33,782 bases of DNA from Akkermansia muciniphila (lineage in GTDB: Bacteria > Verrucomicrobiota > Verrucomicrobiia > Verrucomicrobiales > Akkermansiaceae), in assembly GCA_945888515.1 (NCBI GenBank), contig CAMDAD010000031.1, forward strand, positions 1 through 33,782, given 5' to 3'. The position numbers and the translations under genes are program-made. The stretch's first letter is position 1, and every line of letters begins with the position of its first letter. The notes beneath the pieces were generated by a model that saw only the letters and a program-made list of their open reading frames with translations, searched no databases and had not been told where the DNA came from. Shown here piece by piece: positions 1-5,536 of the stretch.

Positions 1-144
1 GTTTGGTTTTGCAGGCATAGAAATTGCAAAGAAACGCAGAAAATTACTGGTTTTGAGCATCTGATGGAGCGAGCAATGAAACATGACTTTCCGCGCGAAT
101 ATGCTTTCCATAGTAGTCTTATTTCGCTAGAAGAATACTCATGA
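1..144 (+). CDS. C-terminal end of an unidentified gene (partial)
   Basis: Frame 1 is open from the window edge to a TGA at 142-144, giving the last 47 residues of a protein that begins outside the window. The end reads HSSLISLEEYS. I do not recognise a family. The stop overlaps the ATG of the following RHS-tip gene as ATGA, which is the usual sign of translational coupling and is the main reason to take this short open frame seriously. The base composition is AT-rich like the next two genes and unlike the rest of the window. Forty-seven codons without a stop in AT-rich DNA could still be chance, so confidence is low. Confidence 0.35.
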   Translation, partial: VWFCRHRNCKETQKITGFEHLMERAMKHDFPREYAFHSSLISLEEYS

Positions 145-917
145 ATCAGTGGAGCGCGCCAACTGCACGAGACAGGCATATTTCCTCTCGGACGCGTGCT
201 CGCACCCATACTGGTGAACAACCAGCGCATCGCAGGCACCCCTCAAATACCCAAAAATCATCGAGAAAACATGCTTTTGGGGGTGTAATACCTTACTACG
301 GATACCGTTACTATGACCCTCTAACAGGCCGCTGGCCCTCCCGCGATCCGATTGGACCGAATTTTTTCACCAGTGAAGTCAATGTATACTCTTTCATCTT
401 AAACATGACAGGAAATGCCATAGACTTCCTCGGCCTCACAATAATCACTGGCACAAGAGATTTGGGTGGAAATTGCCTAGGGGGTGCGCTGATGAATGCA
501 TCAAATTACCATATGCAACCAAATCACACCCAAAACCCAAAAGATTCTTTCAAGGATGCTCTGGAAAAAGCTTTTCAACTTAAGTGCAAAGAAGTCGCAA
601 AAGCCGATGATTGCATGTGCAAGTGTAAAGAAGAGAAAATTTTAATAACCACATACAAAAACGACGATCCAAAAAACAAGGGTAAGAATCCTTTTACTGA
701 TCCGAAATTCGAATGGGGCAAACGTGACCCAAAAGACCCTAATATTCTACTTAGCGATATTCATGCAATTCGTGCCGATACGGGTTGTGGTAAAGATTAT
801 AAGCAGATTCCTCATGCACAAGATCCACTTCCAGGCCAACAGGGTTTCAATAAAAATATAAATTGGAAATTGTTTGATGGCAAACCGCTACTGTGCTGTT
901 GCTACGAAAAAAAATAA
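141..917 (+). CDS. Orphan RHS-repeat core tip with variable C-terminal domain
   Basis: The 258-residue product carries the RHS-repeat-associated core signature at about residues 52-98 (YYGYRYYDPLTGRW, then SRDPIG and NVYSF, ending at FLGL). In full-length RHS/YD-repeat proteins this core closes the repeat shell and is followed by a polymorphic C-terminal domain, often a toxin. Here the hundreds of YD-repeat residues expected before the core are absent: the first 50 residues are basic, low in complexity and not RHS-like, and the frame is closed upstream at 18-20. The roughly 160-residue tail is Cys- and Lys-rich (CMCKCKEEK; it ends in CCCYEKK) and contains DIHAIRAD, which loosely resembles a D-x-H-x-x-R tail seen on other RHS proteins. 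The start overlaps the preceding stop (ATGA) and the stop overlaps the next start (TAATG). It is most likely a displaced RHS tip cassette; the tail's activity is unknown. Confidence 0.7.
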   Translation: MNQWSAPTARDRHISSRTRARTHTGEQPAHRRHPSNTQKSSRKHAFGGVIPYYGYRYYDPLTGRWPSRDPIGPNFFTSEVNVYSFILNMTGNAIDFLGLTIITGTRDLGGNCLGGALMNASNYHMQPNHTQNPKDSFKDALEKAFQLKCKEVAKADDCMCKCKEEKILITTYKNDDPKNKGKNPFTDPKFEWGKRDPKDPNILLSDIHAIRADTGCGKDYKQIPHAQDPLPGQQGFNKNINWKLFDGKPLLCCCYEKK

Positions 918-1282
918 TGCACAACCAAATGAACACTTTTTATTATTCTGTAATATTAACTTTTGCTAGTCACCTCTGTGGTTGCTGTAATAAAATAAAT
1001 GATAAAACTGTAACGGTTGAATATGCTGATAGAGGACTATATTATTCTTCAAATGGAATACAATCATCAAATATTAGCGATTTAATCGGAGGGCTACACA
1101 AACCTAACTCCGTGAATGTTGTTATCAATACTAAATTAACTAGTGAGAGCATTATGAAAATTAGAGAGGAAATTAATTCATTAGGTATAACTGAAGTTAA
1201 GATTTCATGTAATGCTTCTAGTTTTCGTTTTGATTCGGTGGGTGGAGATGAGGCAATAACAAGGTCGGATATGTTGCAATAA
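917..1282 (+). CDS. Small predicted lipoprotein, candidate RHS-tail partner
   Basis: A 121-residue product if translation starts at the ATG at 917-919, which overlaps the RHS-tip stop (TAATG); an in-frame upstream start at 893 would give 129 residues. The N-terminus has a hydrophobic segment followed by SHLCGCC, in which LCGC is a passable lipobox, so the protein is probably exported and perhaps membrane-anchored. The C-terminal half (VNVVINTKLT, then REEINSLGITEVKIS) resembles the beta-strand/helix pattern of the ExbD/TolR periplasmic domain, where a short V-x-I strand precedes a helix and a 'lG..kv.i' strand. That likeness is by eye only. DNA is strongly AT-rich. Position directly behind an RHS tail, coupling and small size fit an immunity protein, but no function is shown. 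Confidence 0.55.
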   Translation: MHNQMNTFYYSVILTFASHLCGCCNKINDKTVTVEYADRGLYYSSNGIQSSNISDLIGGLHKPNSVNVVINTKLTSESIMKIREEINSLGITEVKISCNASSFRFDSVGGDEAITRSDMLQ

Positions 1283-1590
1283 TTGGTGGTATGGACCGAG
1301 GACATAGATAACACATAAAATTTCCGACATATTCTCTGGGGTTCTCTGGGGTCAGTGAAAGCGCCGGGATAAACCGGCTTGGAATAGAGAATGAAAGTAA
1401 GCGTAAATGAGGTCAGTCCTTGGAAACGAGTATTTTTTATTCCTGTTAGACACGAATTGTCGGTCGTGTGAATACTTTGGCTGCGATCTCTGGAGGCCGG
1501 GCTTGGTAACATTTTGATTTTCTGTCGACTAATATTTTCGGGAACAATGTCTGATTTTGCCATTTTTTCACACAGAGGCAGGAGCGCCAT
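1283..1590. other. Non-coding flank between RHS island and palindromic repeats
   Basis: No credible gene in either strand. The stretch contains a tandem copy of ttctctgggg around 1334-1353 and a small inverted repeat acacga/tcgtgt (1450-1455, 1464-1469). The composition shifts from AT-rich to the GC-rich background. It probably marks the boundary of the inserted RHS segment, but no attachment site or transposon end could be recognised. Confidence 0.4.
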
Positions 1591-1608
1591 GCCCCGCTGT
1601 GGCGGGGC
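1591..1608. repeat. GC-rich hairpin followed by T-run
   Basis: Perfect 7-bp stem gccccgc/gcggggc (1591-1597 and 1602-1608) with a 4-base loop. A run of seven T begins about ten bases later (1618-1624). The gap between stem and T-run is longer than in a standard intrinsic terminator, so it may be a poor terminator for the RHS-side genes or simply the first palindrome of the repeat cluster. Confidence 0.45.
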
Positions 1609-1654
1609 GGCGGGAGGTTTTTTTAGGGGATTTCGCAACACCATGTTCTCCCCT

Positions 1655-1712
1655 ACGGCAACGCCGTCTCCTCCTACAGCCCAGGGTTGGACGCGCTGCG
1701 GCCTACCCTGGG
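1655..1712 (+). repeat. 58-bp palindromic repeat, copy A
   Basis: The unit has two stems: acggc-aac-gccgt (1655-1667) and, after a cctacag spacer, cccagggt/accctggg (1680-1687 and 1705-1712) around a loop containing acgcgctgcgg. The reverse complement of 1832-1889 has the same order: the same 13-bp first palindrome, a nearly identical spacer ending gacag, and a diverged second stem. Compensating changes (cccaggg/ccctggg versus cccaag/cttggg) keep the stem paired, suggesting selection on structure or ongoing spread of a REP-like element. Confidence 0.75.
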
Positions 1713-1831
1713 GATCTCGCGCCAAAAACATTCTTCAACCTTGCAAAGGTTGCCTCATGGGGTTCACTCATCAATACCCATTCGTAGTAGGCAACCCGCT
1801 TCGGGGTTGGAAAATGTCTTCGATGAAATGA

Positions 1832-1889
1832 CCCAAGCTAGCTCGCTTCGCGTGCAACCTTGGGCTGTCATAGGAAACGGCGTTGCCGT
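1832..1889 (-). repeat. 58-bp palindromic repeat, copy B (inverted)
   Basis: Inverted relative of the element at 1655-1712. It contains the stem cccaag/cttggg (1832-1837, 1859-1864) and the palindrome acggc-gtt-gccgt (1877-1889). Together the two copies form a large inverted repeat of about 235 bp with a further small hairpin, caaccc/gggttg (1792-1797, 1804-1809), between them. Short open frames that cross this region are products of the repeat and not genes. Confidence 0.75.
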
Positions 1890-1932
1890 AAATTTTTGAA
1901 GTCAGTTGCGCTGGTTCATGCCGAACGATGAA

Positions 1933-2018
1933 GCGTCCTGTGAGGACGCGGATGGTGGGAGGTGGCTGAGTTACCCACGGTTGCACCGTGGGCTGGTATG
2001 CGTTGTCCTGTTAGGACA
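1933..2018. repeat. Cluster of three short palindromes
   Basis: Three hairpins follow the inverted pair: gcgtcc/ggacgc (1933-1938, 1944-1949), cccacgg/ccgtggg (1974-1980, 1986-1992) and tgtcct/aggaca (2004-2009, 2013-2018). The first and third share the core gtcctg-t-aggac, so they are probably copies of one small element. With the elements at 1591-1889 they make a mosaic typical of dispersed repeats next to accessory DNA. The next 120 bases, up to the end of the polyphosphate kinase gene, show nothing further. Confidence 0.6.
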
Positions 2019-2141
2019 GAGAGGTTTCCATGAATGAGGTTTCTTAGGGGTTATTGCACGCTCATGCTTCACTCGGGGCAAAAAAAGCTTGTCTCAGATT
2101 CTTACAGTCCGCGCTCGGTTTGCTCTACCGTTTCTATCACA

Positions 2142-4280
2142 TCAAGCACTGGGTGTGTGCGGTTCGAAGGTGAGAGAGCGCTCGTGTTCGCGGGCCTTGG
2201 CGAGGCGTTTAGCTTCGCGGAAAAAGTGCAACTGCGCGCGGAAAGGCTTCTCTCCCTTAGCAGGGGCGATCGGCGTGGACAGTCCAGTGAGCAGGATGAG
2301 ATGCGCGTTGCTGTTATCAGCAAAGCAGTTTTTAAGAATACCGATGAGACGGCGCTTAAGCACGACGTCCTCGATGGGAATCATCAGCTCGATGCGACGA
2401 TCGAGATTGCGCGACATCCAATCGGCCGAGGCGATGAAGACGGCGTTTTGACCGCCTTGATGGAAAGCGAAAATGCGGGCGTGTTCGAGGTAGCGGTCGA
2501 TGAGCGATACCACGCGGATGTTTTTCGAAAATTTCTTGTCGTTTGGCTTGAGGCAGCATACCCCGCGGATGTTGAGAGAAATTTGCACGCCGGCTTGGGA
2601 CGCCTTATAGAGCGCCTGAATGATGTCTGGATCCTGCAGTGAATTCACCTTCGCCATGATCCACGCGGGCTCGCCGAGCTTGGCGCGGTCAGCCTCTGAA
2701 GCGATCAACTCTAACAAACGCGGTTTCATTTGTGTGGGTGCAGGGACAAGGTGACGGAAGCGCAGTAGCTTCGATCGCCCCGTGAGAGCGTTGAAAAACA
2801 GAGAGGCGTCGTGCCCATAATCGGGGCGACATGTGAGATAGGAAATATCAGTGTAAAGCTTTGCTGTAGTCTCGTTGTAGTTGCCGGTGCCGAGGTGAAC
2901 GTAGCGCCGCAGTGAGCCCTCTTCACGGCGAACGACGAGGCAGATTTTCGCATGGGTCTTGAGACCTTTCACTCCGTAAACGATGGTAGCACCGGCGTTT
3001 TGCAATTCATCTGCACGCATGAGATTGCGGGCTTCATCAAAGCGAGCCTTGAGCTCCACGAGAACGGTAACCTGCTTGCCATTTTGCGCGGCGAGGATGA
3101 GGGCATCGATGATGCGTGATTTTTTGGCGGTGCGGTAGAGGACTTGTTTGATCGCGAGCACCTGCGGATCGACAGCGGCTTCTTCCAACAGACGTAGTAC
3201 GGGATCGAAGGACTGATACGGGTGGAACAGCAGCAGGTCCTTCTGCGAGATGGCCTCGAACATCGAGGCACCCGGTGCGATGTCCGGCGAATGCTGCGCG
3301 GGCCATTCCTCATCGCGGAGAGTGTGAAAGCCCGGAAGAAAGGCGAGGTCCATCAGGCTGGAGAGCCCCACCGGTCCGCGCGGGATGGTGTAAATTTCCT
3401 GACGCCCGGCTCCCGTGGCACTGCGGATGATGGCGATCAGTTCGCGCGGGCAAGAGATCGGGATCTCGACACGCACGGTATCGGCAAAGCGCCGCGCGGT
3501 CAGGACCTCTTCCATTTCATCGGCGAGGTCGTTAGTGTTGTCCTCGTCCACGGTGATGTCGCCATTGCGCGTGAGGCGGAACACACCTGTGGAAGTGACC
3601 GTTTCACCGGGGAACAGCGAGGAGGCATGCAACGCCACAAGGTCTTCTAACAAAATGAAAGTATTCGGGTTATTGGTCAGCCCGATGCGTCGACCTAACG
3701 ATTCCGGCAAGGGAATGAACGCATAGCGTTTTTCGTGAGTGTCTGGATTCTGAATTCGACAAGCCAGAATAGGCGTGAGTGCGGGCAGAGTCGGCGGAGC
3801 CTCGCCGGGATCGTAGGAGAGAGGCGTCAACACCGGCATGATGGCGTGCTCATAGGTCGCGCGCAGGGAGTTTTTCTGCGATTCGTTCAGTCGTGCGGGA
3901 TCGAGGAAATGGATGTCCTGTTTTGCCAGAAGCGGTAACAACACACCATGCAGCAAATGGTATTGATCATCCACGAACTGCAGCACGCGCTTGCGCAACA
4001 CTTCGAGTTGTTTCGTGGGAGTGAGACCGCTGGCATCGGGGGTCTTGCGACCTGCCCGCTGCAGTAAAATCAATCCGCCGATGCGCACTTGGAAAAACTC
4101 ATCGAGATTCGATGCCGTGATGGCAAGAAATTTCACCCGCTCCAGCAAGGGCACATCACTGCGCTGCGCCTGATGGAGCACTCGTTGATTGAACTCGATC
4201 CACGACAGTTCACGATTGAGAAAAGGGGTGACCATACGCGCAGAAAATAGTGGCAAATCCGCACTTTGCCAAGCATACAT
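2142..4280 (-). CDS. ppk1: Polyphosphate kinase 1
   Basis: PPK1 makes inorganic polyphosphate from the gamma-phosphate of ATP, reversibly, through a phosphohistidine intermediate. The 712-residue length is normal for the family. The N-terminal family signature NRELSWIEFNQRVL and ITASNLDEFFQVR are present, as are the catalytic-domain motifs KTHAKI with the presumed autophosphorylated His at residue 443 and LEHARIFAFHQGG with a conserved His at 600. These correspond in spacing to His435 and His592 of the E. coli enzyme. An internal ATG at 4233-4235 (residue 16) would place ELSW at residue 9, closer to the family's usual start; neither start has a clear ribosome-binding site. The gene stands alone, divergent from nagA, with no adjacent exopolyphosphatase or pho gene in view. 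A cytoplasmic or membrane-associated enzyme is expected. Confidence 0.95.
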   Translation of the reverse strand: MYAWQSADLPLFSARMVTPFLNRELSWIEFNQRVLHQAQRSDVPLLERVKFLAITASNLDEFFQVRIGGLILLQRAGRKTPDASGLTPTKQLEVLRKRVLQFVDDQYHLLHGVLLPLLAKQDIHFLDPARLNESQKNSLRATYEHAIMPVLTPLSYDPGEAPPTLPALTPILACRIQNPDTHEKRYAFIPLPESLGRRIGLTNNPNTFILLEDLVALHASSLFPGETVTSTGVFRLTRNGDITVDEDNTNDLADEMEEVLTARRFADTVRVEIPISCPRELIAIIRSATGAGRQEIYTIPRGPVGLSSLMDLAFLPGFHTLRDEEWPAQHSPDIAPGASMFEAISQKDLLLFHPYQSFDPVLRLLEEAAVDPQVLAIKQVLYRTAKKSRIIDALILAAQNGKQVTVLVELKARFDEARNLMRADELQNAGATIVYGVKGLKTHAKICLVVRREEGSLRRYVHLGTGNYNETTAKLYTDISYLTCRPDYGHDASLFFNALTGRSKLLRFRHLVPAPTQMKPRLLELIASEADRAKLGEPAWIMAKVNSLQDPDIIQALYKASQAGVQISLNIRGVCCLKPNDKKFSKNIRVVSLIDRYLEHARIFAFHQGGQNAVFIASADWMSRNLDRRIELMIPIEDVVLKRRLIGILKNCFADNSNAHLILLTGLSTPIAPAKGEKPFRAQLHFFREAKRLAKAREHERSLTFEPHTPSA

Positions 4281-4334
4281 GAGTTGGAATTCGAAGAATG
4301 ACCGTGATTCTTCTTCTGTGCGCCCACTAAAGGA

Positions 4335-4363
4335 TTCGTATCAGATTTTGCTCTTGCTATTAT
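4335..4363 (+). promoter_or_regulatory. Possible sigma-70-type promoter for nagA
   Basis: A TATTAT -10 (4358-4363) lies 17 bases after ttcgta (4335-4340), a weak -35. Transcription from about 4370 would leave a 27-base leader before the nagA ATG. The 116-bp region between the divergent ppk1 and nagA genes is the only place for their promoters. This is consensus matching by eye. Confidence 0.35.
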
Positions 4364-4396
4364 CTGCTTCTTTTCTTATTACAGAAACTTCAGTTT

Positions 4397-5536
4397 ATGA
4401 AAACCTTCATTCACCATGTCACAATCGTTTCACCGCAGCAGCGTCTTGAAGCGCAATCGATCCTGATCGAGGATGGCATGATTGCGATGATAGGCTCTGA
4501 TACTGTGGCCGCGGATGAAGTGATCGATGGAAGTGGATTGCTGGCGGTGCCGGGATTGTTCGACATCCATTGCCACGGCGCGGATGGCGCGGATGTTTGC
4601 GATAATTCGTTAGAATCGGTGCGTCACATCGCTCGGAAAAAATTGGCCGAGGGCGTGACCACGTGGCTGCCCACCACCCTTACCCAGCCGCGCGAAACAT
4701 TGCGCGAGATCGTCGGCAAAGTAGCGCAGTATCGCACGCAAGAGGATCTCACCCGCTGCCCCGGCCTGCACATCGAGGGGCCATTCATCAACAAGGAAAA
4801 AGCGGGGGCACAGAATCCGGAGTTCGTGCGGTTGCCCGACTGGGAGGAACTGCGTGGCTTGCATGACATCGCGCCAGCGCGGATCGTCTCGCTCGCGCCG
4901 GAAATGCCGGGCGCCGGAGAGTTGATCGCGATGGCGACTAAGGGTGGCATCGTTTGCTCCGCCGCCCACACCTCGGCCACCTATGCGCAGCTGTCTGAGG
5001 GCATCGCCGCGGGTCTGAAACATCTCACGCATTTCGGCAATGCGATGACGCCCCTGCACCATCGCGAGATCGGCGTAGTCGGCGGAGGATTGTATGACCC
5101 ACGCGTGAACATCGAACTGATCTGCGACACCATCCATCTCTGCCCGGACATGCTGCGGCTGATTTTCTCCGTGGTGCCGATCGAGCGACTGATGATGATC
5201 ACCGATAGTGTGGCGGCCTCGTGGATTGGCAATGGCATCATGCAACTCGGCGGTCTGGACGTGGTCATTGAAAATCACGTGGCGCGCCTGAAAGTGGGCG
5301 GTGCTCTCGCCGGCTCGACCTTGCTGGCAAACGAAGGCTTGCGCAACGTGGTGGAAGTCACAGGGCTGCCCATCGAAAAAGTCATCCAAGCAACTTCCTG
5401 GAATCAGGCGCAATCGTTAGGTCTCGCTGGATTCGGAAAAATCGAAGCCGGATATCATGCGGACATCACACTGTTGCGCCAGGATTTTTCGGTGGCACGC
5501 ACCATCGTCGCAGGTGAATCGCGCTTCATCGCCTAA
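4397..5536 (+). CDS. nagA: N-acetylglucosamine-6-phosphate deacetylase
   Basis: The product removes the acetyl group from GlcNAc-6-phosphate, the first cytoplasmic step in recycling amino sugars from peptidoglycan or chitin. It has 379 residues, as expected. Amidohydrolase features are visible: DIHCHG with the metal-site H58-x-H60, HIEGPF with metal-ligand Glu127 followed by a KAGAQN segment, AHTSATYAQ, HLTHFGNAMTPL, ELICDTIHL, and the catalytic ITDS. The C-terminus ADITLLRQDF is the usual return to the small beta domain. The DIHCHG form retains both histidines. No nagB, PTS or transporter gene is adjacent, so the pathway partner lies elsewhere. The stop is only 3 bases from the convergent dprA stop. 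Confidence 0.9.
   Translation: MKTFIHHVTIVSPQQRLEAQSILIEDGMIAMIGSDTVAADEVIDGSGLLAVPGLFDIHCHGADGADVCDNSLESVRHIARKKLAEGVTTWLPTTLTQPRETLREIVGKVAQYRTQEDLTRCPGLHIEGPFINKEKAGAQNPEFVRLPDWEELRGLHDIAPARIVSLAPEMPGAGELIAMATKGGIVCSAAHTSATYAQLSEGIAAGLKHLTHFGNAMTPLHHREIGVVGGGLYDPRVNIELICDTIHLCPDMLRLIFSVVPIERLMMITDSVAASWIGNGIMQLGGLDVVIENHVARLKVGGALAGSTLLANEGLRNVVEVTGLPIEKVIQATSWNQAQSLGLAGFGKIEAGYHADITLLRQDFSVARTIVAGESRFIA

Follow-up and report, generated by a model that had tools for sequence, protein, structure and literature searches.

Orphan rhs-CT/rhsI modules of Enterobacteriaceae offer the closest described parallel to the locus reported here. According to the accessible sections of PMC3967940, such a module consists of a displaced rhs C-terminal fragment with a small immunity gene directly behind it and no delivery part. 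For the Salmonella pairs, the same sections report that toxin and immunity functions were demonstrated by test, and that recombination with the main rhs gene, for which a 522-bp stretch serves in Salmonella, can activate the module. They also give DPxGL as the motif that marks the start of the RHS tip. Polymorphic toxins whose immunity protein is exported, such as Tox-JAB-1 with Imm65, offer a further parallel: the toxin cassette stands alone, and its immunity protein is secreted or bears a lipobox; in the accessible part of PMC3482391, Imm65 is the only lipoprotein among the immunity proteins of the collection. Among the titles and abstract openings of the open-licence literature, we found no study of RHS cassettes in this phylum beyond a general survey and no immunity protein resembling ExbD or TolR.

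The window, that is, the whole stretch of DNA analysed here, is an entire contig of Akkermansia muciniphila (bases 1-33782; 33,782 nucleotides). Close to its start, the forward strand carries a gene at 141..917 whose 258-aa product begins with a spacer (residues 1-50), continues with the terminal part of an RHS core (residues 51-99) and finishes with a Cys-rich tail (residues 100-258). The core residues, encoded at 291..437 on the forward strand, match the NCBIfam model TIGR03696 (Rhs_assc_core) at 35.4 bits against a cut-off of 32.5, and the match covers only positions 31-76 of the 76 in the model, namely the C-terminal part of the core. This core terminates in DFLGL, in the position of the DPxGL found in many RHS proteins. 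The candidate toxin tail behind it (438..914, forward strand) contains 9 Cys and 23 Lys among its 159 residues. Finally, the stop codon of the tip (TAA, 915-917) overlaps the ATG of the next gene (917-919) as TAATG. The preliminary description had named an RHS core with a Cys/Lys-rich tail and a gene coupled to it in this manner; both frames are present, and the core scores above its cut-off.

Two in-frame TAG stops (TAGTAG, 111..116, forward strand) separate the tip from any upstream shell, and its open frame begins right after them, at 117. In the whole assembly (3.36 Mb, 54 contigs, 97.5% complete), neither a PF05593 repeat at E <= 0.1 nor a second RHS core at E <= 1 (TIGR03696) was detected. 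Because of these in-frame stops and the lack of any other RHS core or RHS repeat in the assembly, the gene at 141-917 looks like an orphan RHS tip, as far as the 140 bp of readable upstream sequence show. The earlier suggestion that the tip is displaced and lacks a YD-repeat shell is supported on these grounds, as well as by the partial core.

The base composition of the cassette is a sign of horizontal gain, because the G+C content of 442..1282 (forward strand) is 36.0%, low beside the 841-bp windows across 2141-33782, whose mean is 56.5% and whose minimum is 44.6%. A core box of 62 bp, YYGYRYYDPLTGRWPSRDPIG, at 294..355 on the forward strand has a DNA-level match in 46 of 90 RHS-related loci (L003, L004 and L020-L107), at identities of 72.6-91.7%, and is a possible seam for tip exchange. 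When the rest of window positions 1-2140 was compared with the same 90 loci at E <= 0.01, nothing appeared but DNA of the tail, in L077 and in L098, which duplicates it. Since the core box alone is common to the loci at the DNA level, apart from that tail, the pattern would fit an exchange of tips through the core. The locus differs from the enterobacterial modules, as the accessible sections of PMC3967940 present them, in that its assembly lacks a main rhs gene and its seam is 62 bp, not 522 bp, in length. It differs also in that its partner looks exported and its toxin and immunity functions are putative.

Five clear relatives of the tail were found (L077, L099, L101, L102 and L106), each directly behind an RHS core that exceeds the TIGR03696 cut-off (56.7-79.4 bits). 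A search for the tail on full-length RHS proteins had been proposed as a check; one of the five, L099, belongs to an open frame that the tool counts as 1751 residues long, the last 635 of which were read. The tail of L077, a locus from an uncultured Verrucomicrobiales, terminates an RHS frame of 526 residues and is 55% identical over the tail; it was the single clear tail relative in a scan of GTDB genome contigs that gave 169 stretches and 121 relatives, with 78 loci taken on. The other relatives came from whole-genome profile searches, the genome sets of which overlap one another. L099 was recovered in a search in which 4 of 386 genomes were positive at E <= 0.01 (the genome of the window, those of L077 and L099, and one that was dropped), L101 and L102 in one with 4 of 387 (the own genome, those of L101 and L102, and again one dropped), and L106 in one with 4 of 384 (the own genome, those of L102 and L106, and G076). 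In the family of G441, one of 68 genomes carried the tail, namely G441 itself. Because so few genomes were positive in each search, the tail family is rare. L098, L104 and L105 duplicate L077, L099 and L102, respectively, and were counted once.

The alignment of the six members, including the window, has 13 invariant columns: N111, C112, G114, A116, P127, S136, C149, C158, N179, D206, H208, C252 and C253. The relatives have therefore in common an N-C-x-G-x-A motif, a D-x-H motif and several Cys; N111-C112, D206, H208 and four other Cys are invariant. A sixth, weak relative in G076 (L107; E 0.0044, or 0.0018 with the six-member profile) is a frame of 111 residues on the minus strand in which N-C-x-G-x-A-C-G and the P are present and D-x-H and an RHS core are absent; it is probably a remnant of the tail family, not a clear member, and was excluded from the five. 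Two further candidates, G478 (E 0.009) and G093 (E 0.002), were dropped for an internal stop in each, and weak matches from the GTDB contig scan (L062, L035, L078, L086 and L094) had no match to the tail profile. A search with the tail only found the window alone among the 57 nearest genomes; among 387 genomes of the phylum it gave the window and 15 more at E <= 0.1, which were judged from their alignments to be chance. Viral sequences scanned with the tip protein P0001 yielded two contigs that matched through the RHS core only; scans with the A1, A3, A6 and L101 tail queries returned no viral relative, and a viral DPWxDPW pattern scan gave no clear member encoded in 120 stretches among the matches listed. 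Three plasmid records matched by the core only, the plasmid searches gave no tail relative, and phages searched with the L077 tail gave no match.

Profile searches against Pfam, NCBIfam, PHROGs and PADLOC assigned no family to the tail, and the tip protein is without a Pfam match at E <= 1. The tails of L099, L101 and L102 likewise had no Pfam match at E <= 10 except one that was weak and unrelated. As the structure model of the tail has a mean pLDDT of 43.7, too low to use, the only guide to its enzyme class is a motif recognised by eye. With N-C followed later by D-x-H, the tail may tentatively be regarded as a Cys-His amidohydrolase or peptidase in which the other cysteines would be stabilising, a proposal in which we place less than even confidence. 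The tail is like DUF7689 (PF24738) in its early N-C and later H and, judged by eye, in the order of its small motifs; hhalign of the tail against DUF7689 scored 17.9 against 16.9 for the best of 100 shuffles, over 13 columns only. The papain-like Tox-PL1 toxins have the motif NC-H-DxQ in the accessible part of PMC3482391. The tail is like Tox-PL1, too, in its early N-C and later H; it differs from both families by many more conserved Cys, and it has no Pfam match to either. As a separate observation, an RHS frame in L250 (1-1689; 1821 residues by the tool's count) has a tail that matches DUF7689 and appears NlpC/P60-like by eye, while a DUF7689 gene in L251 (G097, a single contig, 99% complete) contains three in-frame TAG codons and is either broken or reads TAG as a residue.

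The candidate immunity gene at 917..1282 (forward strand; alternative GTG start at 893) encodes a protein of 121 aa, P0002, that is probably exported. Its N-terminus is moderately hydrophobic, with a best 11-residue Kyte-Doolittle mean of 1.66, below the lowest threshold of 1.8. Residues 20-23 read L-C-G-C, a non-canonical lipobox-like site. Export of P0002, perhaps as a lipoprotein, is plausible from these features; of the short exported lipoprotein described earlier, the gene and the lipobox-like residues stand, and the N-terminus falls short of the threshold. The likeness to Imm65 and Tox-JAB-1, as far as the accessible part of PMC3482391 goes, ends at the families, for the tail and the partner in the window match no Pfam model over cut-off.

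The gene directly behind each of the five related tails has 108-249 codons and an N-terminal hydrophobicity of 1.85-2.76, with starts chosen by the analyst. Homology to P0002 is evident for the partner in L077 (z 8.2, with 0 of 500 shuffles as good), and the partners of L099, L101, L102 and L106 have no detectable homology to it (shuffle z of -0.1, 2.1, -1.0 and -0.2). The L099 partner had at first been taken for a homologue from alignments and from a profile that contained it, and was rejected when 238 of 500 shuffles scored as well. The tail thus keeps an apparently exported neighbour, a gene that, with only one of five partners detectably homologous to P0002, has been swapped or has diverged past recognition. 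The linkage of the downstream gene to the tail, as earlier proposed, therefore extends to L077 and is not detectable as homology at the other four.

For the mature part of P0002, AlphaFold2 run on the single sequence gave a mean pLDDT of 74.1, with values of 78-87 in blocks across the first 70 residues. Foldseek against the PDB placed TolR (5by4; E 0.11, probability 0.96) first and ExbD (8vgc; E 0.13, 0.95) with it, and found nothing at E <= 0.001. The first five ranks of VIA-align are ExbD/TolR entries as well (Z 7.8, 7.8, 7.6, 7.5 and 7.3; rmsd 2.0-2.6 over 67-71 residues), at Z scores below 8, which by the tool's own note can reflect merely a common arrangement; ribosomal S11-like chains come next, from Z 6.7 downward. 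The ExbD family model PF02472, in contrast, does not match P0002 at E <= 1 or its mature part at E <= 10. In hhalign against ten ExbD domains, a hand-aligned trio reached 7.6% (best of 40 shuffles 2.6%), the pair 0.6% and the window partner alone 3.9%; the result for the trio is weak because it is built on a hand alignment with the L099 partner, whose homology failed the shuffles. Against ExbD, the window partner alone beat 60 of 60 shuffles, and 19 of 60 shuffles were as good as the L077 partner and 43 of 60 as good as that of L099. The ExbD/TolR likeness asserted earlier thus survives as the best match of a predicted fold and not in the PF02472 sequence model: the modelled resemblance is fair at the level of the fold and is not one of membership. 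P0002 differs from ExbD/TolR also in that a possible lipobox-like N-terminus replaces the membrane anchor and in that its neighbour is an RHS tip, with no ExbB-like gene as far as window positions 1-5536 show.

Tips without a shell were compared among loci related to the window. A core regex applied to L003, L004 and L020-L097 collected 75 tips with their 3' end in view, 43 of which have a closed 5' frame; 20 of these 43 have no more than 110 residues before the core, and in this comparison the window tip has 59. One cassette, with a tip of 47 residues ahead of the core, occurs in both L003 and L004. Under one fixed rule, 67 of 74 distinct tips have a next gene, and a hydrophobic N-terminus (>= 2.0) is found in 46 of these 67 against 27 of 152 controls, which are the genes that follow other frames in these loci (261 frames; Fisher 5.7e-13). 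These counts come from loci chosen for likeness to the window core, among which tips and loci are non-independent, and from a hydrophobicity measure that is no signal-peptide predictor. Shell-less tips with apparently exported partners are accordingly common among the sampled Verrucomicrobial RHS loci and of a kind already known, and a partner of this type is nothing unusual there. The hydrophobic next genes suggest the cell envelope as the site of action of many RHS tips in this phylum. We also note that the IMG/VR contigs L003 (1-5498) and L004 (101-2600) hold arrays of shell-less RHS tips, mostly followed by a small gene with a hydrophobic N-terminus, and that the cassette found in both has a lipoprotein-like partner of 111 aa.

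We consider it probable that the locus is a horizontally gained orphan RHS C-terminal toxin/immunity cassette that acts in the cell envelope, a reading based on layout, export and the known orphan pairs. The tail would be a toxin that attacks rivals in their envelope. There it would be bound by the partner, an immunity protein with an ExbD/TolR-like fold that would be exported and perhaps anchored to lipid. Having no shell, the tip would be undeliverable as it stands. It may instead be a reserve that recombination via the conserved core box could join to an RHS shell, and the partner may shield the cell from kin with the same tip. The toxin/immunity pair first proposed gains from the orphan tip, the recurring tail and the homologous pair at L077, and loses from the four non-homologous partners and from L107, which is without a core. 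The locus adds a family of RHS tails that has no name as yet, and its candidate immunity protein has an unusual predicted fold.

The position of the cassette raises a different possibility, since the contig begins 140 bp upstream of the tip frame and only this much can be read, and contig ends also host many of the loci from the scan of GTDB genome contigs. The tip could then be what remains visible of a longer RHS gene, its 3' end, with the shell absent from the assembly or decayed, and not a separate cassette. We regard this as unlikely: the two TAG stops lie in frame, a 97.5% complete assembly holds no RHS repeat and no second core, and nearly half of the related tips with a closed 5' frame likewise have no more than 110 residues ahead of the core. 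That the tail might be no toxin at all, and rather a secreted enzyme or a structural cap beside an unrelated small envelope protein, would agree with its lack of a toxin family and with the four of five relatives whose partners are not homologous to P0002. An overlapping pair behind an RHS core, with low G+C and a homologous pair at L077, is arranged as RHS toxins and their immunity genes are known to be, and we hold this explanation to be rather improbable.

The fold of the partner permits a more specific proposal, in which an exported ExbD/TolR mimic would serve as a decoy against a Cys-His tail that attacks or traverses the Ton/Tol motor of rivals, so that immunity would be built from the target. 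Both structural comparisons place ExbD/TolR domains first, and PF02472 finds 8 ExbD-family genes in the genome at E <= 1e-5, all elsewhere and none at the place of the partner. The sequence evidence for the likeness is nevertheless weak, given the hhalign values for the trio and the pair and the failure of L077 and L099 against shuffles; ribosomal S11 chains follow closely in the fold ranking, and the partners of the other members look unrelated by sequence. We therefore think a decoy very unlikely. Were it true, the cassette would represent a polymorphic toxin directed at energised envelope machinery, and the target would be directly testable if the shape of the partner mirrors it.

In the surroundings of the toxin/immunity cassette that we favour, six neighbours were scanned. 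Five are ordinary genes, encoding a polyphosphate kinase, an amidohydrolase, a WD40 protein, a PSCyt/PSD1 protein and a DUF1501 protein, and one is matchless. At the settings used, no inverted repeats were found in 1283-2140. A short palindrome lies at 1974-1994, in the non-coding DNA behind the cassette, and occurs as one copy in the window when up to 3 mismatches are allowed.
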